Below, in pieces: positions 1-43,195 of a stretch of DNA of 64,000 nucleotides. The stretch lies in the NCBI GenBank assembly GCA_949840775.1, contig CATKXO010000001.1:1-64000 (forward strand). The letters are read 5' to 3'. Positions within the stretch are counted from its first letter, which is position 1; every line of letters starts with the position of its first letter. Made by a program: the position numbers and the translations under genes. Under the pieces are notes generated by a model. That model was not told the origin of the DNA, did no database searches, and worked only from the letters and a program-made list of their open reading frames with translations. This DNA is from an uncultured bacterium (GTDB lineage: Bacteria; Bacillota; Clostridia; Oscillospirales; Oscillospiraceae).

Positions 1-8
1 GGCGATAA

Positions 9-142
9 GCCTCCCTTCGCAAAGGGAGGGGGACCGCCGCCGAAGGCGGTGGTGGAGGGTTTTCTCCCCTGTACATTGCGGCGCTCGTGGGGAAAACCCC
101 CACCCGGCTTCGCCGGGAGCCCCCTTTGCGAAGGGGGCCTTT
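9..142. repeat. Palindromic intergenic repeat, family R1
   Basis: The outer arms GCCTCCCTTCGCAAAGGGAGG and CCCCCTTTGCGAAGGGGGCC are each palindromic, and two inner hairpins (CCGCCGCCGAAGGCGGTGG and CCCGGCTTCGCCGGG) are joined by GGAGGGTTTTC and GGAAAACCCCC. Related copies lie at 18053, 29663, 43067 and 54057, with a fragment at 5443. The arms stay constant while the inner hairpins differ between copies. It lies just downstream of the minus-strand XRE gene and may act as its transcription end. Confidence 0.85.
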
Positions 143-147
143 TGGTG

Positions 148-369
148 CTATCTGTTGACTTCCCGCTTATCCGTCAGGCCCAGCAGGTAATCGACGCTGA
201 CATCGAAGAACTTGGCAATTTGAATCAGGCCAGTGACAGTAGGATAAGCGTTTCCATATTCATATTCCTGATAACCGCGTGGTTTTAAACCGAAGATTTC
301 GGCCATTTCATTCTGTGTATATCGTTTTTCATTTCGTAGTGCTTTGAGCCGTTCAGGAAAATTTGCCAT
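148..369 (-). CDS. XRE-family transcriptional regulator (copy 1)
   Basis: A 73-residue protein that is essentially one helix-turn-helix domain of the Cro/CI (HTH_3) type. Residues 5-60 carry the pattern RLKALRNEKRYTQNEMAEIF, a recognition helix around PRGYQEYEYG, and the closing FFDVSVDYLLG seen in many clostridial XRE proteins. I start at the ATG at 369 because AAGGAGGAT lies 6-8 bases upstream; a longer frame reaching 504 has no such site and would run through the divergent promoter. It is transcribed away from the DPEY-motif gene at 446 and probably represses that gene, its own gene, or both. Its GC content is lower than that of its neighbours, which suggests recent acquisition. The regulator call is firm; the target is inferred. 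Confidence 0.85.
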   Translation of the reverse strand: MANFPERLKALRNEKRYTQNEMAEIFGLKPRGYQEYEYGNAYPTVTGLIQIAKFFDVSVDYLLGLTDKREVNR

Positions 370-385
370 TGTATCCTCCTTGCTC

Positions 386-429
386 TTGACATTCGATAAA
401 AACGTGATATAATTCACGATATAAACGAA
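386..429 (+). promoter_or_regulatory. Promoter with overlapping inverted repeat, XRE unit 1
   Basis: TTGACA (386-391) and TATAAT (408-413) are separated by 16 bases and drive the gene at 446. The perfect inverted repeat CGTGA-N6-TCACG (403-418) is centred on the -10 box. A second symmetric pair, TTCG (392-395) and CGAA (426-429), has the same centre. This is where the divergent XRE repressor would be expected to bind. Confidence 0.75.
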
Positions 430-445
430 ATAAGGAGCTGCTTTT

Positions 446-706
446 ATGAACGATGCAATTAAGATGCTTTTCTTAGACAATCCGGAAATTGATGAAGCAA
501 TCAAGGAATTTTACAGCCAGGACCCGGAATATCTCAAAATCAAGCAGGAGTTTTATGAGACTGCCCATGCAATGAAAAGAATAGTTGGTTATGATCTGTA
601 CGACCAGTTTGAACAGCGGTTCGCGATTTACGTGGCCCGTTCCTGTGAGCTCTATTATCTCTTTGGCCTGGGCCTGCGTCAAGAGGTTTTAGCAGCCTTT
701 TTGTAG
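446..706 (+). CDS. Small helical DPEY-motif protein (DUF6809-like), XRE unit 1
   Basis: An 86-residue, mostly alpha-helical protein of unknown function. Residues 26-29 read DPEY, a motif also found at the same place in the proteins at 35822-36076 and 42480-42746, each of which is likewise divergent from an XRE gene. The C-terminal third ends in a glycine-containing helix (YLFGLGLRQEV), matching the last helix of the other copies. The family name DUF6809 is recalled from general resemblance and is tentative. AAGGAGCTG precedes the ATG. The TAG stop is supplied by a GTAGGGGC repeat beginning at 702, so the C-terminus may have been shortened by repeat insertion. It has low GC compared with the flanking ecf genes. 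Confidence 0.7.
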   Translation: MNDAIKMLFLDNPEIDEAIKEFYSQDPEYLKIKQEFYETAHAMKRIVGYDLYDQFEQRFAIYVARSCELYYLFGLGLRQEVLAAFL

Positions 707-24535: not shown

Positions 24536-25225
24536 ATGTACACCATCCTGATCTGCGACGACGACAGGGATATCGTCTCCGCGCTGGACATCTACCTCAC
24601 CAGCGAGGGCTACCAGACTGTCAAAGCCTACAACGGCCGGGAGGCCATCCGGGCGGCGGAGACCCATGAGATTCACCTGATTCTGATGGATATTATGATG
24701 CCCGAGCTGGACGGCATCCGGGCCACGGCCAAGCTGCGGGAGGGGAGCAACGTGCCCATCATCCTGCTCACCGCCAAGAGCGAGGACACGGACAAGATTC
24801 TGGGGCTGAACATCGGGGCGGACGACTACATCACCAAGCCCTTCAACCCCTTGGAGGTGGTCGCCCGGGTGAAGTCCCAGCTGCGGCGGTACACCGCCCT
24901 GGGGGGCGCGGAGAAGGGCCCCGGCCTGCTGACCGCCGGGCCCATCGCCATGGACGACGGGGCCAAGGTGGTCACGGTGGACGGGGAGTCCATTTCCCTG
25001 ACCCCCATCGAATACAACATCCTGAAACTGCTGCTGTCCCATCCGGGACAGGTGTTTTCCTCCGCCCAGATTTACGAGCAGGTGTGGAACGACCCGGCCT
25101 ACGGCTCGGAAAACACCGTGGCCGTCCACATCCGCCACCTGCGGGAGAAGATCGAGATTAACCCCGCCGAGCCCCGGTATCTCAAGGTGGTCTGGGGACT
25201 GGGCTACAAGATTGAGAAGGGGTGA
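24536..25225 (+). CDS. OmpR/PhoB-family response regulator (system 1)
   Basis: 229 residues, the normal length. The receiver domain (1-118) has acidic pocket residues in ILICDDD (8-10), phosphoacceptor Asp52 in LILMDIMMPELDG, a conserved Thr in ILLTAKSED and Lys in DYITKPFNPLE. The winged-helix DNA-binding domain (about 135-228) has SLTPIEYNILKLLLSHPGQV and the closing VVWGLGYKIEKG. ATG 24536 follows GGGGGGA. The cognate kinase starts four bases after the stop. The Walk/PhoB-like class suggests cell-envelope control, but no target is evident. Confidence 0.93.
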   Translation: MYTILICDDDRDIVSALDIYLTSEGYQTVKAYNGREAIRAAETHEIHLILMDIMMPELDGIRATAKLREGSNVPIILLTAKSEDTDKILGLNIGADDYITKPFNPLEVVARVKSQLRRYTALGGAEKGPGLLTAGPIAMDDGAKVVTVDGESISLTPIEYNILKLLLSHPGQVFSSAQIYEQVWNDPAYGSENTVAVHIRHLREKIEINPAEPRYLKVVWGLGYKIEKG

Positions 25226-35204: not shown

Positions 35205-35825
35205 ATGGTTATAGAAGAATTAAAGCCCTCCAAGCGGGTCCGGGACCGCTGGCTGGCTGTGCTGGAAGACGGGTCCATTCTGCGGGTGAGCAGAAATCAG
35301 ATCGCGGACTTTGCCCTCTACGCCGGCCGGGAGTTGTCAGAGGAGGAGGCGGACCGGCTCTTGGAGGCTATCGAGAACGAGAATTTCCGCTCCTACGCCC
35401 TGCGGGTGGTGACAGAGACCCCAAAGTCCCGAAACATGCTGCTGAAACTTCTGGGAGAGAAAAACTGTCAGCCGGAACGGGCGGAAGAGATTGCCGACTG
35501 GCTGGAGGACATAGGCCTGCTCAACGACGGGCGGTACGCTGCTGATGTGGTGGAGCTCTATGCCCGGAAAGGCTATGGACAGCGGAAAATCCGGGATGAA
35601 CTCTACCGCCGGGGGGTCCCCCGGAAGTTGTGGGACGAGGCGCTGGAGCAGATTGAGGAGGAGGACAGCGCCGCGGCCATTGACGCCTTTCTGGAGAAGA
35701 AGCTGAAGGGCAGCCACGAGCCGAAGGATGTGAAGCGGGCGTCCGACGCCCTGGCCCGCCGGGGCTTCTCCTGGCCAGAGATCAGCGACGCCCTGCGGCG
35801 GTATGGTATGGAGGTCTGGGACTAA
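35205..35825 (+). CDS. recX: RecA regulatory protein RecX
   Basis: 206-residue, all-helical modulator that limits RecA filament growth. Family patterns: ALRVVTETPKSRNMLLKLL, then WLEDIGLLNDGRYAADVVELYARKGYGQRKIRDELYRRGV, and RASDALARRGFSWPEISDAL near the end, i.e. three tandem three-helix units. ATG 35205 sits behind GGGGATAAG. Directly downstream of recA as usual. Its stop overlaps by a few bases the stop of the convergent DPEY-motif gene. Confidence 0.92.
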   Translation: MVIEELKPSKRVRDRWLAVLEDGSILRVSRNQIADFALYAGRELSEEEADRLLEAIENENFRSYALRVVTETPKSRNMLLKLLGEKNCQPERAEEIADWLEDIGLLNDGRYAADVVELYARKGYGQRKIRDELYRRGVPRKLWDEALEQIEEEDSAAAIDAFLEKKLKGSHEPKDVKRASDALARRGFSWPEISDALRRYGMEVWD

Positions 35826-36076
35826 TTTTTCAGAACCTCCAGCATGAACTGTGCGCCAAAGCGCAGACCGCAGGAAAAAATGGCGGCGTTTTCCCATCCG
35901 AAAGCGATGTGCTGTGCGCGCTGATACTGTGACAGCAGGTCCAGTCCGATCTTTTTCTTGACTTCTTCCTCCAGTTCCAGGTATGCTTGGACAGCGCGCT
36001 CATATTCCGGGTCCTCCGTTGGTACTTGGATTTCTTCGATGAGTCTGTGGTAGAGCTTGGAAATAACGTCGTTCAT
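35822..36076 (-). CDS. Small helical DPEY-motif protein (DUF6809-like), XRE unit 2
   Basis: 84 residues, helical, unknown function. It starts MNDVISKLYHRLIEE. The shared DPEY motif is at about 22-25, an amphipathic LELEEEVKKKIGLDLL helix follows, and the C-terminal helix is CGLRFGAQFMLEVL. The architecture matches the proteins at 446 and 42480. ATG 36076 follows GGGAGGATACTAAAA; a longer frame upstream would read through the promoter. It is divergent from the XRE gene at 36159. Confidence 0.72.
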   Translation of the reverse strand: MNDVISKLYHRLIEEIQVPTEDPEYERAVQAYLELEEEVKKKIGLDLLSQYQRAQHIAFGWENAAIFSCGLRFGAQFMLEVLKN

Positions 36077-36097
36077 TTTTAGTATCCTCCCAATAAT

Positions 36098-36146
36098 GCG
36101 AGATTTAATCTGACACAATTATAGCAGAATAAATCTAGCGAGTCAA
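36098..36146 (-). promoter_or_regulatory. Promoter with overlapping inverted repeat, XRE unit 2
   Basis: On the minus strand TTGACT (36146-36141) and TATAAT (36123-36118) are 17 bases apart, pointing to the DPEY-motif gene. AGATTTA (36101-36107) and TAAATCT (36130-36136) form an inverted repeat centred on the -10 box; the match extends to GC(G/T)AGATTTA, 9 of 10 bases. Confidence 0.75.
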
Positions 36147-36158
36147 GGGGTAATGTGC

Positions 36159-36401
36159 ATGTTTGACAGAAAGTTGATGGGACAGCGACTGTCTGCGATT
36201 AGAGAATCCAGAGGAATATCCAGGAAAGAGGTCACGGAACTTTTGAATGTGACACGGACGCAAGTCAGCGATATTGAAAATGGAAAGAGCGGCACAAACC
36301 TGGTCCGCTTCTATCAGCTGTGCGAGTTTTACCAAGTCTCCGCCGATTACCTCCTCGGCATCACCGACGACCCCACGTGGAGAGGAAAACCGCAAGGGTA
36401 G
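36159..36401 (+). CDS. XRE-family transcriptional regulator (copy 2)
   Basis: 80 residues. The HTH_3 domain (about 6-65) has MGQRLSAIRESRGISRKEVT, the recognition helix TRTQVSDIENGKSG, and the end FYQVSADYLLGITDDP. ATG 36159 has AAGGGG eight bases upstream; an ATG six bases earlier is too close. It is divergent from, and a likely repressor of, the DPEY-motif gene at 35822-36076. A terminator follows. Confidence 0.85.
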   Translation: MFDRKLMGQRLSAIRESRGISRKEVTELLNVTRTQVSDIENGKSGTNLVRFYQLCEFYQVSADYLLGITDDPTWRGKPQG

Positions 36402-36407
36402 CACCCC

Positions 36408-36437
36408 AAAAGCCTTCCCCGAGAAGAGGAAGGTTTT
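36408..36437 (+). terminator. Rho-independent terminator after XRE copy 2
   Basis: CCTTCC / GGAAGG with flanking A and T runs, tail TTTTGCC. Confidence 0.7.
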
Positions 36438-36496
36438 GCCCTGCGAGGGACGGGGACTGTTATCCTTACAATATCTTATAAAACTGGAGCGATACC

Positions 36497-37822
36497 ATGC
36501 CATACAAGATTGCGTTTATCTCCCTTGGCTGCGCCAAGAACCTGGTGAACACCGAGCAGATGATGGCTCTCTGCCGGGCGGCGGGGCACACCGTCACCGG
36601 CGACCCGGAGGGGGCCGATGTGGCGGTGCTGAACACCTGCGGCTTTATCGAGTCGGCCAAGAGCGAGGCCATTGACAACATCCTCCAGCTGGGGGAGCTG
36701 AAAAAGGCGGGGAAGCTGAAAAAGCTGCTGGCAGCGGGCTGTCTCAGCCAGCGCTACCCGGACGGCATCCGGGACGAGCTGCCCGAGGTGGACGGCATGC
36801 TGGGCACCGGCAGCTACACCGATGTGGTGGCCGCCGTGGAGGCGCTGATGGCGGGGGAGCGGCCGGAATACTTTTCCAGCATCCACCATACCTATGAGGA
36901 TGGCGAGCGCCTTGTCACCACCCCGCCCTACACCGCCTATCTGAAGATTGCCGAGGGGTGCTCCAACGGCTGTGTTTTCTGCATCATCCCGAAATTGCGG
37001 GGAAAGTACCGCAGCCGGTCCGTGGAGGCCCTGCTGGCCGAGGCTAAGGGGCTGGCGGACGCCGGGGTGAAGGAGCTCATTGTCATTGCCCAGGACATTA
37101 CCCGGTACGGGCTGGACCTGGAGCCTAGGACCTCCCTGGCCCGGCTGGTGAAAAAGTTATGTAAACTTGATTTCCGCTGGATTCGCCTGCACTACCTCTA
37201 TCCGGAGGCCATTACCGATGAGCTGGTCCAGGTCATCGCCAATGAGCCCAAGGTGCTCCACTACCTGGACATCCCCATCCAGCACTGCAACGACGGGATT
37301 TTGCAGGCCATGCGCCGCCGCAGCACCAAGGCGGAGCTGGTTGAGCTCTTTGCCAAACTGCGGGCCGCCATGCCCGACGTGGTCATCCGCACCTCCCTGA
37401 TCTGCGGCCTGCCCGGAGAGGGGGAGGCGGAGTTTGAGGAGCTGTGCGAATTTCTTCAGGAGCAGAAGCTCCAGCGGGTGGGGGTGTTCCAGTTCTCCCC
37501 GGAGGAGGGCACCCTGGCCGCCGCCATGGAAAACCAGGTGGACCCGGACGTGGCCGCCCGGCGGGTGGAGCTGGTGGTGGACCTCCAGTCCCGGATTATG
37601 GACGGGTACAACGAGGCGCGGCTGGGCACCGTGATGGAGGTCCTCTGCGAGGGCTTCGACAGCGGGGAGGGCTGCTATGTGGGACGTACCTACGCCGACT
37701 CGGTGGACATCGACGGCCGGGTACTGTTCACCGCCGCCGGGCTGGTGCCCGCAGGAGAATTTGTCAACGTGCGTATTACCGGGGTCTCTGACGGGGACCT
37801 GACAGGTGAAATTGAAATGTAG
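36497..37822 (+). CDS. rimO: Ribosomal protein S12 methylthiotransferase RimO
   Basis: Radical SAM enzyme (441 residues) that adds a methylthio group to an aspartate of ribosomal protein S12. The N-terminal MTTase domain has Cys12, Cys48 and Cys82 for the auxiliary cluster. The radical SAM motif is Cys155-x3-Cys159-x2-Cys162 in EGCSNGCVFC. RSVEALLAEAKGLADAGVKEL and DIPIQHCND are family features, and a TRAM domain ends the protein. The TAG stop is part of a GTAGGGGCTACCCTAC mini-repeat (37819-37834). It is followed by pgsA in the common RimO-PgsA order. Confidence 0.95.
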   Translation: MPYKIAFISLGCAKNLVNTEQMMALCRAAGHTVTGDPEGADVAVLNTCGFIESAKSEAIDNILQLGELKKAGKLKKLLAAGCLSQRYPDGIRDELPEVDGMLGTGSYTDVVAAVEALMAGERPEYFSSIHHTYEDGERLVTTPPYTAYLKIAEGCSNGCVFCIIPKLRGKYRSRSVEALLAEAKGLADAGVKELIVIAQDITRYGLDLEPRTSLARLVKKLCKLDFRWIRLHYLYPEAITDELVQVIANEPKVLHYLDIPIQHCNDGILQAMRRRSTKAELVELFAKLRAAMPDVVIRTSLICGLPGEGEAEFEELCEFLQEQKLQRVGVFQFSPEEGTLAAAMENQVDPDVAARRVELVVDLQSRIMDGYNEARLGTVMEVLCEGFDSGEGCYVGRTYADSVDIDGRVLFTAAGLVPAGEFVNVRITGVSDGDLTGEIEM

Positions 37823-37858
37823 GGGCTACCCTACAGGCAGACGAGGAGAAGATGTTCC

Positions 37859-38389
37859 ATGCCAATGAATACCGCCAATAAGCTGACCATCCTGCGGGTG
37901 GTGATGATCCCCGCCTTTCTGCTGGTTCTGTACTTAGATGTGCCCTATGCCAATTACTGGGCCCTGGCCATCTTCGCCGCCGCCAGCATCACCGACACCC
38001 TGGACGGCTACATCGCCCGGCACTACAACCAGATCACCGATTTCGGCAAGTTCATGGACCCCCTGGCCGATAAGTGCCTGGTGTTTGCCGCTATGCTGTG
38101 GTTTGTGGAGGTGGGCCAGATGCCCGCCTGGGCCCTGCTCATTGTCGCCGTCCGGGAGTTTGGGGTGTCCGGGCTGCGGATGGTGGCCGCCGACAAGGGG
38201 AGGGTCATTGCCGCCGGCTGGTCGGGGAAGGTAAAGACCGCCGCCACTATGGTGTGCGTTATCCTTATGCTGCTCCCCCTGCCCGCTATCGTTAATGAGA
38301 TCTGCACCGCCGTTATTGTGCTCACCACCATTTACTCCGGCGTGGAATACTTTATGAAAAACGCGGACATCCTGGCTGAGGCCAGGTGA
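37859..38389 (+). CDS. pgsA: CDP-diacylglycerol-glycerol-3-phosphate phosphatidyltransferase
   Basis: Makes phosphatidylglycerol phosphate, the committed step to anionic phospholipids; integral membrane enzyme of 176 residues. The CDP-alcohol phosphotransferase motif D-G-x2-A-R-x8-G-x3-D-x3-D is complete in DGYIARHYNQ...DFGKFMDPLAD. N-terminal NKLTILRVVMIPAFLLV is typical. Four to five hydrophobic segments follow. It is downstream of rimO and 13 bases before the YitT gene, probably one operon. Confidence 0.94.
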   Translation: MPMNTANKLTILRVVMIPAFLLVLYLDVPYANYWALAIFAAASITDTLDGYIARHYNQITDFGKFMDPLADKCLVFAAMLWFVEVGQMPAWALLIVAVREFGVSGLRMVAADKGRVIAAGWSGKVKTAATMVCVILMLLPLPAIVNEICTAVIVLTTIYSGVEYFMKNADILAEAR

Positions 38390-38402
38390 AAAGGAGATTG
38401 GA

Positions 38403-39281
38403 ATGACAAAGACTGACCAGAAAAGCCGGCTGAGGGAGTTTGTCACCCGCGTGCTGATGATTACCCTGTCCTCCTTCATTGTGGCGGTGAACCTGAAGAG
38501 CTTTGTGGCGGCAGGCGACCTTTTCCCAGGCGGTTTTACTGGCATGAGCCGGCTGGTCCAGCGGTGCGCCCTGGAGTTTGCCGGGATCGAGCTGCCCTTT
38601 GCCCCCATTAACCTGGCCCTGAATGCCGTTCCGGCCTTTATCAGCTTCAAGCTGGTGGGCAAGCGGTTCACCCTGTACTCCTGCCTGACCATCGTCCTGA
38701 CCAGCCTCTTTACCGATCTGCTGCCCACCATGACCATCACGGAGGATAAGCTGCTCATCTGCATCTTTGGCGGGATGATCAGCGGCTTTGCCGGCTGCCT
38801 GTGCCTGTGGGTGCGGGTGACCAGCGGCGGCACCGATTTTATTGCCATTCCCCTGTCGGAGCGGAAAAACGTGGACGCATGGGGCTATATCTTTTTTGGC
38901 AATGTGGTGATGCTGACCATCGCCGGGGCCCTGTTTGGGTGGGATAAGGCGCTGTATTCCATGCTGTATCAGTACGCCTGCACCCAGGTAATCAAAATGC
39001 TGGACCCGGACGGGCGGCGGGCTACCCTGCTGATTATTACCGGCCGGGAGAGCGCCGGCGGCGTCTGCGCCCAGATCCAGGAGACCCAGCACACCGCCAC
39101 CCTCATTGAGGGGGTGGGGCTGTACAACGGCGCGCCCTGCGTGATGATCTACTCCGTGGTGAACGACAGCGAGGTACGTTCTCTGGCCCAGAAGATTCGC
39201 CAATCTGACCCCAAGGCCTTTGTCAACGTTCTGCGCACCGAGCGGGTGGTGGGCAAGTTCTACCGCAGGCCGAGGGATTGA
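38403..39281 (+). CDS. YitT-family membrane protein (DUF161/DUF2179)
   Basis: 292 residues. Hydrophobic segments near 15-35, 50-70, 90-110, 115-140 and 165-185 form the DUF161 region, with GGFTGMSRLVQR and WVRVTSGGTDFIAIPLS as conserved loops. The C-terminal DUF2179 domain (about 215-290) has ATLLIITGRESAG and SDPKAFVNVLRTERVVGKFYRRP. Function is unestablished. AAAAGGAGATTGG precedes the ATG. Confidence 0.9.
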   Translation: MTKTDQKSRLREFVTRVLMITLSSFIVAVNLKSFVAAGDLFPGGFTGMSRLVQRCALEFAGIELPFAPINLALNAVPAFISFKLVGKRFTLYSCLTIVLTSLFTDLLPTMTITEDKLLICIFGGMISGFAGCLCLWVRVTSGGTDFIAIPLSERKNVDAWGYIFFGNVVMLTIAGALFGWDKALYSMLYQYACTQVIKMLDPDGRRATLLIITGRESAGGVCAQIQETQHTATLIEGVGLYNGAPCVMIYSVVNDSEVRSLAQKIRQSDPKAFVNVLRTERVVGKFYRRPRD

Positions 39282-39294
39282 GAAAGGGAATTGT

Positions 39295-39429
39295 CCTTTT
39301 CGCAGATTTTAATGTAGGGGCCGCCGCCTTCGGCGGCCCACAAAAATACAACGCCTCACTTGGCTTCGGGCCGCCCAGGGGGGCGGCCCCTACAGCTGAT
39401 CTCCGGATAAAATGCGCGTTAGGGCACTC
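39295..39429. repeat. 135-bp repeat, copy A (inverted relative to copy at 55654)
   Basis: Outer unique flanks (CCTTTTCGCAGATTTTAAT and GATCTCCGGATAAAATGCGC) enclose two family C hairpins with GTAGGGGCCGCC and GGCGGCCCCTAC ends. It matches the reverse complement of 55654-55788 over its full 135 bases at roughly 90 percent by eye, far beyond the shared GTAGGGG ends. Confidence 0.85.
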
Positions 39430-39447
39430 CCTTGAGAAAGTTTTTGC

Positions 39448-39506
39448 TTGCATCCGGGGCGGGTATCCTGTATAATAAACGGTCGAGAGGGCGGGAGCCC
39501 TCGCCC
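39448..39506 (+). promoter_or_regulatory. Promoter and leader hairpin of panT-coaX
   Basis: TTGCAT (39448-39453) and TATAAT (39471-39476), 17-base spacer. A leader hairpin AGAGGGCG / CGCCCTCT lies near 39485-39508. The 282-base gap from 39282 otherwise holds the 135-bp repeat. Confidence 0.7.
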
Positions 39507-39563
39507 TCTTAAATATTGCGCTGCATCCGCGCAAGGCGGAGCGGCAGCAGGAGGTATGTAAAA

Positions 39564-40211
39564 ATGAATACTCGCAAGCACAACACCCGCTGGATGGTGG
39601 GAGTGGCCCTGTTCGTGGCGCTCCAGCTGGTCCTCCAGCTCACCGGCATCGGCCTGATTCCCCTGCCCTTCATCAAGGCCACCACTCTGCATATCCCGGT
39701 TATCATCGGTGCGGTGGTCCTGGGCCCCCTGGCGGGCGGAATCCTGGGCGGCGTGTTCGGACTGTGCTCTGTCTGGACCAACACCGTGGCCCCCAGCGCC
39801 CTGTCCTTTGCCTTTTCTCCGGTGCTGGCCGCTGAGACCAGCGGAGGGACCGGTGCCCTGAAGGCTGTCTGGATTGCCTTCGGCTGCCGTGTGATGATCG
39901 GTGTGGTGGCCGGTTGGCTGTGGATTGCCCTAAAGAAGCTGAAGGTCAACGACCTGATTGCCCTGCCCATCGTAGGTGTGGCTGGGGCCATGACCAACAC
40001 CGTACTGGTGATGGGCAGCATCTATGTGCTTCTGCGCCCAGAATATGCCGCGCTAAAAAACGTAGCCATGGAGGCGGTGCTGGGGCTGATTATGGGCGTA
40101 GTCGGGACCTCCGGCGTGGCGGAGGCTATTGCCGCCGCTATCCTGGTCACCGCCATCGGCAAGGCCCTGCTCCATGTGCCCGCGTTTAAGAGAAAACCCC
40201 AGGCGGCATAA
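39564..40211 (+). CDS. panT: ECF transporter S component, probable pantothenate transporter PanT
   Basis: Substrate-binding membrane subunit of 215 residues with about six helices: WMVGVALFVALQLVLQLTGI, IPVIIGAVVLGPLAGGILGG, RVMIGVVAGWLWIAL and LPIVGVAGAMTNTVLVMGS. The small Gly/Ala helix pattern needed to dock on EcfT is present. Pantothenate is inferred because the next gene, 25 bases away, encodes pantothenate kinase. The EcfA1A2T module at 715-3557 could energize it. ATG 39564 follows GCAGGAGGTATGT. Confidence 0.85.
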   Translation: MNTRKHNTRWMVGVALFVALQLVLQLTGIGLIPLPFIKATTLHIPVIIGAVVLGPLAGGILGGVFGLCSVWTNTVAPSALSFAFSPVLAAETSGGTGALKAVWIAFGCRVMIGVVAGWLWIALKKLKVNDLIALPIVGVAGAMTNTVLVMGSIYVLLRPEYAALKNVAMEAVLGLIMGVVGTSGVAEAIAAAILVTAIGKALLHVPAFKRKPQAA

Positions 40212-40236
40212 TATTTTAGAAATCAGGTGAGCGTCT

Positions 40237-41010
40237 ATGCTCCTGGCCATCGACATTGGCAACACCAACATCGTCATCGGGGGGATTGATGGCAGCGGGA
40301 AAATCGCTTTCGAGGCCCGCATCGCCACCGACCGCATCAAGACCTCCGACCAGTACGGGGCGGAGATCAAGAGTATGCTCAGCCTCTTCGACGTGAAGCC
40401 CCGGGACATCGACGACTGCATCATCTCCTCGGTGGTGCCGCCGGTGTTCAATTCGGTGCGTACCGGCATCATCAAAGTCACCGGCAAGGCCCCCATGGTG
40501 GTGGGGCCGGGCATCAGGACGGGGCTGAATATTCAGATGGACAACCCCTCCCAGGTGGGCAGCGACCGGATTGTTGTTGCCGTGGCGGCCCTGGCGGAGT
40601 ATGAGCCTCCCCTTACCCTGCTGGACCTGGGCACTGCCACCACCATTGAGGTGGTGGGCAGGGGGAGCACCTATCTGGGAGGCTGTATTATCCCCGGGGT
40701 GCGGGTGTCGCTGGAGGCCCTCACCTCCCGCACCGCCCAGCTGCCCGGCATCAGCCTGGACCGGCCCAAAAAGGTGATCGGCAAGAACACGGTGGACTGT
40801 ATGCGCAGCGGCATCATGTACGGCACCGCCGCCATGCTGGACGGGATGTTGGACCGGGTGGAGGAGGAGCTGGGCTTTGCCACCACTGTGGTGGCCACCG
40901 GGGGGATGGCCCAGTTTGTGGTCCCCCTGTGCCGCCGGGAGATACGCCTGGAGAAGGACCTGCTGCTCAAGGGGCTGTACGCCATTTATCAAAAGAACCG
41001 GAAGAATTAG
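40237..41010 (+). CDS. coaX: Type III pantothenate kinase
   Basis: Phosphorylates pantothenate, the first step of coenzyme A synthesis; type III enzymes have no feedback inhibition by CoA. 257 residues with phosphate-binding LLAIDIGNTNIVIG (Asp5 catalytic), ISSVVPPV, GSDRIVVAVAAL, LLDLGTATTIEVV and GGCIIPGV motifs. AATCAGGTGAGCG precedes the ATG. It is cotranscribed with panT. Confidence 0.95.
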   Translation: MLLAIDIGNTNIVIGGIDGSGKIAFEARIATDRIKTSDQYGAEIKSMLSLFDVKPRDIDDCIISSVVPPVFNSVRTGIIKVTGKAPMVVGPGIRTGLNIQMDNPSQVGSDRIVVAVAALAEYEPPLTLLDLGTATTIEVVGRGSTYLGGCIIPGVRVSLEALTSRTAQLPGISLDRPKKVIGKNTVDCMRSGIMYGTAAMLDGMLDRVEEELGFATTVVATGGMAQFVVPLCRREIRLEKDLLLKGLYAIYQKNRKN

Positions 41011-41020
41011 CGGTTATCCC

Positions 41021-41049
41021 TTGACAGCGCCCCCAAATTTGCATATAAT
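41021..41049 (+). promoter_or_regulatory. Promoter of the T-box transcript
   Basis: TTGACA (41021-41026) and TATAAT (41044-41049), 17-base spacer: a full consensus. Starts just after the coaX stop. Confidence 0.85.
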
Positions 41050-41055
41050 TGACCG

Positions 41056-41291
41056 AACAAAGGCAATGCGAAAGAGGAGTACCCATTTGCGGGCGTTCAG
41101 AGAGGGGACGGACGGTGCAAGTCCCTGGCCCGGAGCGGCGGAAGGTGGCTTTCGCGCCCTGCCCCTGAACCGGCAGTAGGGGGCGGCGGGACTTCCCGTT
41201 ACAGAAGGCAAGAGCGTCCCCGTTCCGGGGAAATTCAGGTGGTACCGCGGTTTATCGTCGCCCTGAGTCCGTTTGGACTTGGGGCGTTTTT
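41056..41291 (+). promoter_or_regulatory. T-box leader, probably tRNA-Val responsive
   Basis: Transcription-attenuation leader that senses uncharged tRNA. The basal stem I is GCGAAAG (41068-41074) with CTTTCGC (41149-41155). AGTA (41078-41081) and GAA (41141-41143) form the loop E. The T-box AGGTGGTACCGCGG is at 41237-41250. A terminator CGCCCTGAGTCC / GGACTTGGGGCG plus five Ts ends at 41291. The specifier after GAA reads GGT (Gly) directly, or GTG (Val) shifted by one. The discriminator-pairing base is U (TGGT), which fits A73 tRNAs such as tRNA-Val and not the usual U73 of tRNA-Gly; valS lies 2 kb downstream. Confidence 0.85.
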
Positions 41292-41304
41292 GCGAGGTGA
41301 CGGC

Positions 41305-41820
41305 ATGGTCGTGATCCAGACCACAATAAATCAGAGAGCGATGACGGCCCTGGCCCGGGCGACCCGGAAGACGGTCCGCCGGGGACGAAACGGCCCGGTG
41401 CGGCTGCTGGCCTGGTTCATCGTTCTGCTGGAGGGCTTTTTGACCGCAATCTATATCCGGGGCGGGTTGGACGGCTGGCAGGTCAACGCCCTGCTGGGCT
41501 CAATCATGCTGGCCTGCATCCTCAGCGAGGACTGGGTGAACGGGGCCATCGGCCTGCGGCGCACCCCGCCGGACAGCCGGGAGGTCAACACAGCCTTTCA
41601 GGATGAGAGCTGCTATGTCTGCCGGGCCCAGTCCGGAGAGGCCTGGTGGCCCTATCAGCAGGTCATGGCGGCCATTGAGATGAAGGACTATTTTGTGCTT
41701 CTTCTGGACCGGAAGCATGGGCAGGTGTTTGACAAGCGCGGCCTCACCTGGGGCTCACCGGAGGAATTGCGGGACCTGATCCGGAAGAGGACCGGCTTGA
41801 AAATGCAGAGGGTCTGGTAA
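41305..41820 (+). CDS. YcxB-like membrane protein 1
   Basis: 171 residues. Two hydrophobic segments near 33-52 (LLAWFIVLLEGFLTAIYI) and 59-76 (LLGSIMLACILSEDW) are followed by a cytoplasmic domain. That domain (about 95-165) has WWPYQQVMAAIEMKDYFVLLLD and the YcxB-like ending. Function unknown. First gene after the T-box terminator; GCGAGGTGACGGC precedes ATG 41305, so its expression should follow tRNA charging. A related protein follows 30 bases on. Confidence 0.7.
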   Translation: MVVIQTTINQRAMTALARATRKTVRRGRNGPVRLLAWFIVLLEGFLTAIYIRGGLDGWQVNALLGSIMLACILSEDWVNGAIGLRRTPPDSREVNTAFQDESCYVCRAQSGEAWWPYQQVMAAIEMKDYFVLLLDRKHGQVFDKRGLTWGSPEELRDLIRKRTGLKMQRVW

Positions 41821-41850
41821 GGCCCGCCGAATAGACAGAGGAGGTACGTG

Positions 41851-42462
41851 ATGAAAGAGCAAAAAACCGCGCCCGGGGCCATTGTCTTCCGGGGGACGGT
41901 GGACCAGCTGGAGCGGGCGGGGGATTATCTGATTCTGCTCAGTTATGTGCGCAGCGTCCGCCGGGGGAGAATCATGGGCCCGCTGGTCACTGTCTTCCTG
42001 GCTGCCGCGATGATGATCCAGTTCCGAAACGGAAACCCCGCCATGACCGTTGTATACTTGATTCTGGCCCTCTATGTGGGCATGACCGTCATGCGCAAGA
42101 CCATAGGCGGCGACCCCGCTGAGGTGGTGGCGGCCAACCGGAAATCCAGGGAGGCGGCGGCCGCCGCCGGAAAGTACGACGGAAATCTGCCCTTCCGCAT
42201 TGTGCTGGACCAGGGCCAGTGCCGTATCTACTTCGGGGACAGCAGCGAGCCCAACCAGATTTTTGACTGCAAAAAATTCCGCTCGGCGGTGGAGTGCGAG
42301 GAGATCGTGTGGCTTACCGGCAAGCGGGGGCTGGGCCTGCCCCTGCCCAAGGAGCAGCTGGCAGACGCCACTCCCGCCGACCTGCGCCGGTGGCTGAGGC
42401 CCTACGCCGCCATCTGGAGTATGAGCCATATCCCCGATAAGCTGAAGGAATCGATGAAATAA
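41851..42462 (+). CDS. YcxB-like membrane protein 2
   Basis: 203 residues. The N-terminal GAIVFRGTVDQLERAGDYLI is followed by two membrane segments at about 47-66 and 70-88, then a cytoplasmic region with FRIVLDQGQCRIYFGDSS and a YcxB-type close (FRSAVECEEIVWLTGKRG, PLPKEQL). It has the same topology as the preceding gene, suggesting an old duplication or a two-part complex. AGAGGAGGTACGTG precedes ATG 41851. No terminator was seen after it, so T-box transcripts may continue downstream toward valS. Confidence 0.65.
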   Translation: MKEQKTAPGAIVFRGTVDQLERAGDYLILLSYVRSVRRGRIMGPLVTVFLAAAMMIQFRNGNPAMTVVYLILALYVGMTVMRKTIGGDPAEVVAANRKSREAAAAAGKYDGNLPFRIVLDQGQCRIYFGDSSEPNQIFDCKKFRSAVECEEIVWLTGKRGLGLPLPKEQLADATPADLRRWLRPYAAIWSMSHIPDKLKESMK

Positions 42463-42479
42463 ACTGAAAATAAGACGGG

Positions 42480-42746
42480 TTAGCCCGACCGCACCAGAGC
42501 GTTCAGCTCCTGAGCCAGCCCCAGCGACGCCTGGAACAGATGCTCGTTCTCGATGCTGCTCTGCGCGGACAGGTTTTCCAGCAGAAGCCGCAGCTCTCGC
42601 TGCTGTTTTTTGCCCAGGGACTGTTGAACTTTTTCAAGCTGCAATTCCACACTGCGGGACATCTCCTCATATTCCGGGTCCTGGTAGATGCTCCCCATGC
42701 GCTTTGTGCGCACAAAATCATAGAGACATTTCATTAGGCCGTCCAT
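42480..42746 (-). CDS. Small helical DPEY-motif protein (DUF6809-like), XRE unit 3
   Basis: 88 residues, helical. DPEY at about 23-26 (YQDPEYEEM), then VELQLEKVQQSLGKKQQREL and a C-terminal helix FQASLGLAQELNAL. It is the third copy of the family that also includes 446-706 and 35822-36076; sequences have diverged except for DPEY and the helix layout. CGGAGGTATTGCT precedes the ATG. It lies on the strand opposite to the T-box transcription unit, so read-through RNA would be antisense to it. Confidence 0.72.
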   Translation of the reverse strand: MDGLMKCLYDFVRTKRMGSIYQDPEYEEMSRSVELQLEKVQQSLGKKQQRELRLLLENLSAQSSIENEHLFQASLGLAQELNALVRSG

Positions 42747-42760
42747 AGCAATACCTCCGA

Positions 42761-42822
42761 TTGGATTAATCTATTTGGAGCATTTATGGTTCTATTATAA
42801 TTAATCCAAACGGACCTGTCAA
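42761..42822 (-). promoter_or_regulatory. Promoter with overlapping inverted repeat, XRE unit 3
   Basis: On the minus strand TTGACA (42822-42817) and TATAAT (42799-42794) are 17 bases apart. A perfect 10-base inverted repeat TTGGATTAAT (42761-42770) and ATTAATCCAA (42800-42809) flanks the start region. The right half overlaps the spacer next to the -10. Confidence 0.78.
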
Positions 42823-42839
42823 GGGGGTATAATAATAAA

Positions 42840-43052
42840 ATGCTAAAACTTGCGGAGCGATTATATTTGCTGAGGAAAGAACGAGATTTAACCCAGTTGC
42901 AGGCGGCGGAGGGAATGAATGTGGCGTTTAGCACATATCGCCGCTATGAGAAAAAACAGCGGGAGCCCGACGCATCTACATTGGTTCAGATGGCGGACTT
43001 CTACGGCGTAACAACCGATTATCTGCTGGGTCGCTCAGAGGAGCGCACCTAA
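42840..43052 (+). CDS. XRE-family transcriptional regulator (copy 3)
   Basis: 70 residues, a bare HTH_3 domain: LAERLYLLRKERDLTQLQAA, then NVAFSTYRRYEKKQREPDAS and the close DFYGVTTDYLLGRSEE. AAGGGGG lies 12 bases upstream of the ATG, a long spacing. It is divergent from the DPEY-motif gene at 42480. It lies between the YcxB-like genes and valS. The whole unit looks like an insertion into a T-box-valS transcription unit. Confidence 0.84.
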   Translation: MLKLAERLYLLRKERDLTQLQAAEGMNVAFSTYRRYEKKQREPDASTLVQMADFYGVTTDYLLGRSEERT

Positions 43053-43066
43053 ATTTCGCGGCCAAA

Positions 43067-43195
43067 GGCCCCCTTCGCAAAGGGGGCTGTCAGCCGCAGG
43101 CTGACTGGGGGTTTTCCTTACCGGAAAATACCTGCCAAGAAACCCTCCACCACCGCCTGCGGCGGCGGTCCCCCTCCCTTCACAAAGGGAGGCTT
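43067..43195. repeat. Palindromic intergenic repeat, family R1, before valS
   Basis: Inverted orientation. Inner hairpins GTCAGCCGCAGGCTGAC and CCACCGCCTGCGGCGGCGG. It fills most of the 186-base gap in front of valS; no T-box or other leader was found between it and valS. Confidence 0.85.

Follow-up and report, generated by a model that had tools for sequence, protein, structure and literature searches.

Divergent XRE/DUF6809-type units in an Oscillospiraceae bacterium as candidate autorepressed genes with exchangeable repressor specificity

The first 64,000 nucleotides of contig CATKXO010000001.1 (assembly GCA_949840775.1), from an uncultured bacterium of the Oscillospiraceae and referred to here as the window, contain one small arrangement three times: an XRE gene of 70-82 codons (x1, x2, x3), encoding only a helix-turn-helix (HTH) protein, divergent from a partner gene of 84-88 codons with a DPEY motif (d1, d2, d3). 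Why should one chromosome hold several such units, each with its own operator? The initial annotation had described three loci of common plan, and our reanalysis agreed with it on the coordinates, on the sizes and divergent arrangement of the genes, on the DPEY motif and on the promoters with their inverted repeats. We compared these units with those of related genomes and found that the operators follow the HTH and not the partner protein, and that operator and HTH have been replaced as a block beside a conserved partner gene. These comparisons make it rather probable, in our judgement, that the units are autorepressed effector genes with their own Cro/C1-type repressors of exchangeable specificity, resembling phage immunity regions. 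The features of the three units are listed below.

148..369, minus strand: putative repressor x1 of unit 1, XRE family, 73 amino acids, ATG at 367-369; HTH_3 45.1 bits (cut-off 23)
386..413, plus strand: promoter of d1, TTGACA 386-391, TATAAT 408-413, 16-bp spacer
392..407, plus strand: predicted operator O1 of unit 1, within the promoter spacer
414..429, plus strand: predicted operator O2 of unit 1, directly after the -10 box
446..706, plus strand: partner d1 of unit 1, 86 amino acids, LFLDNP / DPEY type
35822..36076, minus strand: partner d2 of unit 2, 84 amino acids, DUF6809; PF20648 41.6 bits (cut-off 27)
36099..36112, minus strand: predicted operator O2 of unit 2, beyond the -10 box
36118..36146, minus strand: promoter of d2, TTGACT 36141-36146, TATAAT 36118-36123, 17-bp spacer
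36124..36140, minus strand: predicted operator O1 of unit 2, within the promoter spacer
36153..36401, plus strand: putative repressor x2 of unit 2, XRE family, 82 amino acids; HTH_19 and HTH_3 above cut-off
42480..42746, minus strand: partner d3 of unit 3, 88 amino acids; PF20648 21.7 bits, under the cut-off of 27
42757..42770, minus strand: predicted operator O2 of unit 3, near the partner ribosome-binding site
42794..42822, minus strand: promoter of d3, TTGACA 42817-42822, TATAAT 42794-42799, 17-bp spacer
42800..42816, minus strand: predicted operator O1 of unit 3, within the promoter spacer
42840..43052, plus strand: putative repressor x3 of unit 3, XRE family, 70 amino acids; HTH_3 55.5 bits (cut-off 23)

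We collected 119 distinct units from the source genome and related genomes and labelled each by its first matching profile, giving 68 d2/d3-type and 51 d1-type units; d2 itself was labelled d1-type in this set. The same plan was found in all 119, and the idea of three unrelated, coincidental pairs was rejected on that ground. The near-consensus partner promoter noted in the window was present in all three units there and recurred among the relatives, with both hexamers matching at 5 or more of 6 positions in 110 of the 119 units (mean of dinucleotide shuffles, 1.8). Both hexamers were perfect in 69 units (shuffle mean 0), and the spacer was 17 in 101. The -35 box adjoins the ribosome-binding site of the XRE gene (read from the sequences, uncounted).

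An unconstrained palindrome test on single units was significant only for unit 2 (L001), the fraction of 40 shuffles that scored as well being 0.65, 0 and 1.0 for units 1, 2 and 3. The predicted operators share a layout in which one copy (O1) lies in the -35/-10 spacer and the second (O2) beyond the -10 box, in direct or inverted orientation. Taken as a family, the operators went well past what chance would give: O1 resembled the O2 of its own unit above those of other units (Wilcoxon p 1e-11 in 60 units and 1e-20 in 119). In 54 of the 119 units no O2 scored higher than the unit's own, and in 89 the unit's own O2 was within the five best. Among the 77 of the 119 units whose match scored 8 or more, the centres of O1 and O2 lay a median of 28 bp apart. 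Within the 64-kb window the operators recurred only in their own unit, save for a few 3-mismatch matches at the level of shuffled windows, and O2 of unit 1 had no other match in it at up to 3 mismatches. We also observed one d1-type partner with a clear operator pair and no adjacent regulator (L249, at about 24857-24899 of G022:C2); no XRE gene lay near three other operator-like sites of that genome.

The operators differ from unit to unit, and we therefore asked which of the two proteins they follow. Permutation regression gave standardised coefficients of 0.377 and 0.272 for operator similarity against HTH similarity in the two unit classes (p 0.002). For operator similarity against partner similarity in the same classes, the coefficients were -0.008 and 0.02 (p 0.62 and 0.36), and we rejected the possibility that the operators are fixed by the partner protein. 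We further compared unit pairs whose partners were less than 35% identical, taking a score of at least 10 as strong operator similarity. Such similarity was seen in 0-1% of pairs whose recognition helices were below 60% identical, in 4% at 60-80%, in 40% of 15 pairs at 80-99%, and in 54% of 13 pairs with identical helices. Operators that track the HTH of the XRE protein in both classes are what the initial annotation's orthogonal switches would require, and the regression supports that proposal.

We then examined how operator and HTH change while a unit stays in place. At the recX-rimO site, both flanks were available for 43 of 50 loci, of which 15 held an intact unit, 4 were flagged as XRE only, 1 held a remnant and 23 held none. 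Among the four XRE-only loci, L215 and L219 have unflagged divergent open reading frames (ORFs) that are near-identical to each other and stand beside different XREs and operators; L218 has no divergent ORF. The clearest replacement was seen between L075 and L152 at this site, which share recX (96% identity), the partner (97%), the XRE C-terminus with its flank (97%) and rimO. Between these 94-97% identical flanks, the operator is only 51% and the HTH only 50% identical. The fourth XRE-only locus, L168 (G011), is a decayed trace; it and L214 (G017) are decaying copies with a truncated partner and a broken XRE gene, which shows that units are lost at the site.

This replacement was not confined to one pair of loci. 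Among 15 unit pairs with partners at least 83% identical, 7 had both operator and HTH below 75%, although L238 takes part in three of these 7 and not all have conserved flanks on both sides. Among 14 pairs with a partner synonymous divergence (dS) below 0.5, 9 had diverged at the XRE gene, 8 with an XRE dS above 0.9 and 1 saturated. In G002, two units stand in tandem, so that one genome holds both versions. In the second unit the partner is reduced to a 5' fragment, which is near-identical to the first unit's for about 75 bases; this unit matches G244 with 100% identity in the operator and 98% in the HTH. This tandem state is what is expected ahead of the loss of an old block. The initial annotation had regarded the pairs as old paralogues or independent arrivals; that view misses the main process, in which operator and HTH are replaced as a block and the partner gene is kept.

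Block replacement could also come from neutral homologous recombination among ordinary local regulators of a housekeeping trait, with regulator arrays arising as chance duplications. Both genes are under purifying selection, with median ratios of nonsynonymous to synonymous divergence (dN/dS) of 0.22 for the partner (197 pairs) and 0.13 for XRE (142 pairs), and the conserved ends of the units supply substrates for recombination; both facts fit that account. We nevertheless find it rather improbable, since 9 of the 14 pairs combine a closely related partner with a far more diverged XRE gene and since exchange of the HTH is accompanied by a changed operator. The purifying selection on the partner genes indicates that the partner has a function. 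Regulator arrays, with two or three consecutive regulators, were found in 4 of 50 d1-type units. L240 has three XREs that differ in their HTHs but end almost identically at the 3' side, L230 and L245 have two XREs each, and L256 has two XREs and a ribbon-helix-helix-like gene.

The anatomy of the units and its evolution, comprising the gene plan, the promoter, the paired operators, their dependence on the HTH, block replacement, the tandem state, the arrays and purifying selection on the partner, were read directly from sequence comparisons. From these we propose the following mechanism. The partner gene, whether DUF6809 or d1-type, would be an effector gene that a small Cro/C1-type autorepressor of the same unit keeps silent. 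A dimer of the XRE protein would bind both copies of the operator, the one between the -35 and -10 boxes and the one past the -10 box, and so block the partner promoter. With its start codon some 10 bases past the -35 box, the XRE gene would probably have its own transcription blocked too. We infer repression on binding from the operator positions and from the kinship of the XRE proteins to the repressors of ICEBs1, P22 and 434. Operator and HTH would together form a specificity block that is swapped by homologous recombination between units and species, with the conserved 5' end of the partner as one recombination arm and the conserved 3' end of the XRE gene or its flank as the other. A resident repressor would silence any unit of the same specificity, and new specificities would escape it, so that exchange would presumably be favoured by an immunity-type, frequency-dependent advantage.

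Several observations weigh against this reading. The initial annotation had suggested aligning the operators with the XRE recognition helices; the helix was indeed the main predictor of the operator when 60 units had been collected (0.343, p 0.001), but over 119 units the 8-residue helix alone contributed little (0.051, p 0.034) against 0.232 for the rest of the XRE protein, and a stretch about 10 residues downstream of the helix predicted the operator better. One unit (L058) shares an identical helix with L003 and L024 and has unlike operators (score 5.0-5.5). The unit's own O2 ranked first in only the 54 units given above and not in the rest, and evidence for a bidirectional promoter, in which XRE transcription shares the one -10 box, was weak (93 observed against 80.6 expected). 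Neutral recombination could be the source of the exchange. Lastly, XRE and partner identities correlate (rho 0.57), and changes in the C-terminus of XRE go along with changes in the partner; contact between the two proteins would give the same results.

Such contact is central to the idea of a two-protein bistable switch, in which the partner would be an antirepressor that binds its own XRE protein and lifts repression, as SinI relieves repression by SinR, or in the way that BldB-like proteins are linked to WhiJ-like regulators. Besides the identity correlation and the effect of the XRE C-terminus on partner similarity, the partner itself speaks for this idea, being short, helical in appearance and devoid of a catalytic signature. 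We hold it to be possible though doubtful, because units that share HTH and operator can have partners only 22-28% identical (L055 against L022, L023, L037 and L045; L073 against L058), because d1-type partners also occur beside ribbon-helix-helix-like regulators, and because the class A relatives described below adjoin integrases, where no XRE of the paired type was found.

The XRE protein may recognise the partner protein, as in the antitoxin-like pair also suggested by the initial annotation, yet a 98%-identical partner was found beside a 46%-identical XRE protein, and beside d1-type partners ribbon-helix-helix-like proteins can take the place of XRE. In a type II toxin-antitoxin (TA) system the partner would be a toxin neutralised by bound XRE, which would also repress the pair. 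The small size, autorepressor layout and many paralogues of the units agree with this, as do the patchy presence at recX-rimO (15 intact against 23 unoccupied among the 43 two-flank loci), the differently folded regulator that some d1-type units have, and the XRE C-terminus, which co-varies with the partner and stays with it in the exchange between L075 and L152. However, the genes do not form one operon, being divergent in the window units, in 46 paired PF20648 matches and in 47 of 50 d1-type loci, and the 6-17 residues (5th-95th percentile) that follow the DYLLG motif of XRE leave little room for a toxin-binding domain. The tolerance of a nearly unchanged partner for so different an XRE protein also argues against a TA pair, as does the PADLOC search of 47 partner members, in which the best match reached only E 0.0077. 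None of 14 similarly multiplied XRE-DUF397 pairs of Streptomyces behaved like a type II TA system when tested (PMC10364602). We consider a TA system unlikely.

Our preferred reading of autorepressed effector genes can be extended, tentatively and with less than even confidence, to a chromosomal conflict system with repressor specificity as its currency, whose DUF6809 and d1 effectors would be kin of mobile-element proteins found next to integrases. Only a repressor of matching specificity would then protect a cell against a unit that arrives or competes with its own. New specificities would be favoured for that reason, operator and HTH blocks would be traded across species, and at some loci extra repressors would be collected as immunity arrays. 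These arrays would parallel the orphan immunity genes of polymorphic toxin systems.

We next considered which protein families are involved. All three XRE proteins exceeded the Pfam cut-offs of both HTH_3 and HTH_19 and are of the Cro/C1 type; x2 has a better placed second ATG at 36159, giving 80 amino acids. The partners had been called DUF6809-like, and this held for d2, which lies above the family cut-off, while d3 is sub-threshold and d1 is not a clear member, a Pfam scan giving nothing above a cut-off. In hhalign, a profile of 47 partners (A1; mostly d2/d3-type, d1 included) matched class A DUF6809 with a probability of 99.2% and was homologous over the full length. The d1-type profile matched DUF6809 with a probability of 24.3%, and 4 of 40 d1-type members had E<0.01 in Pfam; we regard the d1-type family as doubtfully related to DUF6809. 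Named relatives of d2 come from the isolate Bacterium 1xD42-67 and from metagenome-assembled genomes that carry the labels Lawsonibacter sp. and uncultured Firmicutes, and on this basis the source is probably a gut bacterium similar to Lawsonibacter.

In the source genome, PF20648 gave 4 matches, the A1 profile gave 11, and the d1-type profile (A3) added C2:95993, making 12 partner genes in 2.6 Mb. Eleven stand opposite an XRE gene and one (C8) opposite a ribbon-helix-helix-like protein with weak matches to HicB, ParD, TacA1, RHH_7 and Arc, all under cut-off. Next to XREs at L277, L286 and L289, divergent ORFs are partner-like by eye only. At three further loci (L285, C31:10148; L288, C6:15077; L292, C8:64463), we observed a small XRE gene with a strong divergent promoter opposite other short ORFs that are not recognisably DUF6809.

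Searching relatives with PF20648 gave 107 matches in 28 of 40 genomes, and the surroundings of 93 were read. A divergent XRE gene of the paired type was found at none of the 26 matches of at least 50 bits (class A and fragments) and at 46 of the 67 below 50 bits (45 by script, plus L004 with a GTG-start XRE); the remaining 21 were mostly longer proteins of another type. The d1-type profile gave 121 matches in 61 genomes of the genus, 38 of them with a match. Of the 50 d1-type loci read, 47 had a divergent XRE gene, 2 a ribbon-helix-helix-like gene and 1 neither. The pairing, which the initial annotation had proposed to check, is thus conserved in related genomes. XRE/partner pairs were also found in other genera of the family; across the class, only 10 of 291 genomes gave a strong profile match.

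A tyrosine integrase, TnpV or MobL gene lay near 41 of 71 unpaired loci and 0 of 53 paired loci, for which flanks of 1.5-2.5 kb were read; the models for these genes were themselves derived from genes neighbouring the unpaired loci, and the count could therefore favour the contrast. On the paired count, we rejected the candidate explanation that the units belong to a resident mobile element. Class A DUF6809 genes (L092, L087, L104, L090 and other unpaired loci) were observed immediately before a tyrosine integrase gene or following TnpV or MobL relaxase genes, and integrative elements may thus make use of DUF6809.

Searches for a function of the partner gave few leads. Against solved structures, the best match of the DUF6809 partners was a designed protein (E 0.044); the partners had no match in PHROGs, d2 had none in a phage collection, and in viral contigs the A4 alignment gave 16 pattern matches with 0 confirmed. 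In NCBIfam, 1 of the 47 A1 members weakly resembled the competence regulators of the YlbF/YmcA family (E 0.0026), which may offer a lead to the DUF6809 fold; YlbF-type genes were present in 1 of 20 related genomes. In addition, similar CCTCCCTTTGCGAAGGGAGG-like intergenic inverted repeats were observed next to several of the units, at window positions 1-140 and 43053-43190 and at L003 2060-2190, possibly a dispersed repeat.

DUF6809 was not mentioned in the literature searched, and the units turn it into a testable system; its role beside the integrases of mobile elements would become directly testable as well. As a natural set of dozens of small putative repressors, each with operators to match, the units would be useful for working out how XRE proteins recognise DNA and as a source of orthogonal parts. 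Should selection for exchange prove true, repressor specificity would be evolving in the manner of an immunity type outside phages.

Literature on immunity regions and on cross-talk of XRE antitoxins gave no description of XRE/DUF6809-type units, and we compared them with four kinds of known system. The immunity regions of temperate phages and integrative and conjugative elements (ICEs) have a small Cro/C1-type repressor with its own operators and divergent promoters, and in phages the repressor and operators are exchanged as a specificity module. Among known systems they appear nearest in module exchange, with a divergent repressor, multiple operators and, as our alignments suggest, exchange of the module here too. 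They differ in that all 53 paired loci lack an integrase, TnpV or MobL, and that here two genes lie between housekeeping genes, in about a dozen units per genome, with a partner that is not Cro-like. The C proteins of restriction-modification systems are HTH-only XRE proteins of about 80 residues with paired operator sites. C.BclI and C.AhdI matched the XRE profile of the units when it was compared with solved structures, as did P22 C2 and 434, the best match being the ICEBs1 XRE regulator (E 2.1e-18). The units differ from C protein loci in having no restriction or modification gene and in the DUF6809 or d1-type gene opposite XRE.

In DicA-DicB of the Qin cryptic prophage, a phage-type switch repressor silences a small protein that is toxic on overexpression (PMC10448788), and the likeness is a repressor holding the gene of a small protein silent. 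DicA-DicB differs in being a single prophage locus with the Cro-like DicC. Streptomyces genomes carry many paralogous pairs of XRE and a small protein, the XRE-DUF397 pairs of WhiJ/BldB type (PMC10364602, PMC10294661, PMC6262351), which are the nearest described case of many XREs paired in one genome with a small protein lacking an annotated function. They were proposed as TA systems; 14 overexpressed pairs were not TA-like and the pairs tested acted as regulators (PMC10364602). BldB and WhiJ9 have been described, and WhiJ9 binds direct repeats in an intergenic region (PMC10294661). The abstracts do not mention exchange of an operator and HTH block for these pairs. Pfam scans of 40 d1-type members, and of d1-d3 at E values up to 10, listed no DUF397, and the Streptomyces pairs belong to another phylum and another small-protein family. 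In those pairs the DUF397 gene is described as lying downstream of XRE, whereas in the units described here the two genes are divergent.

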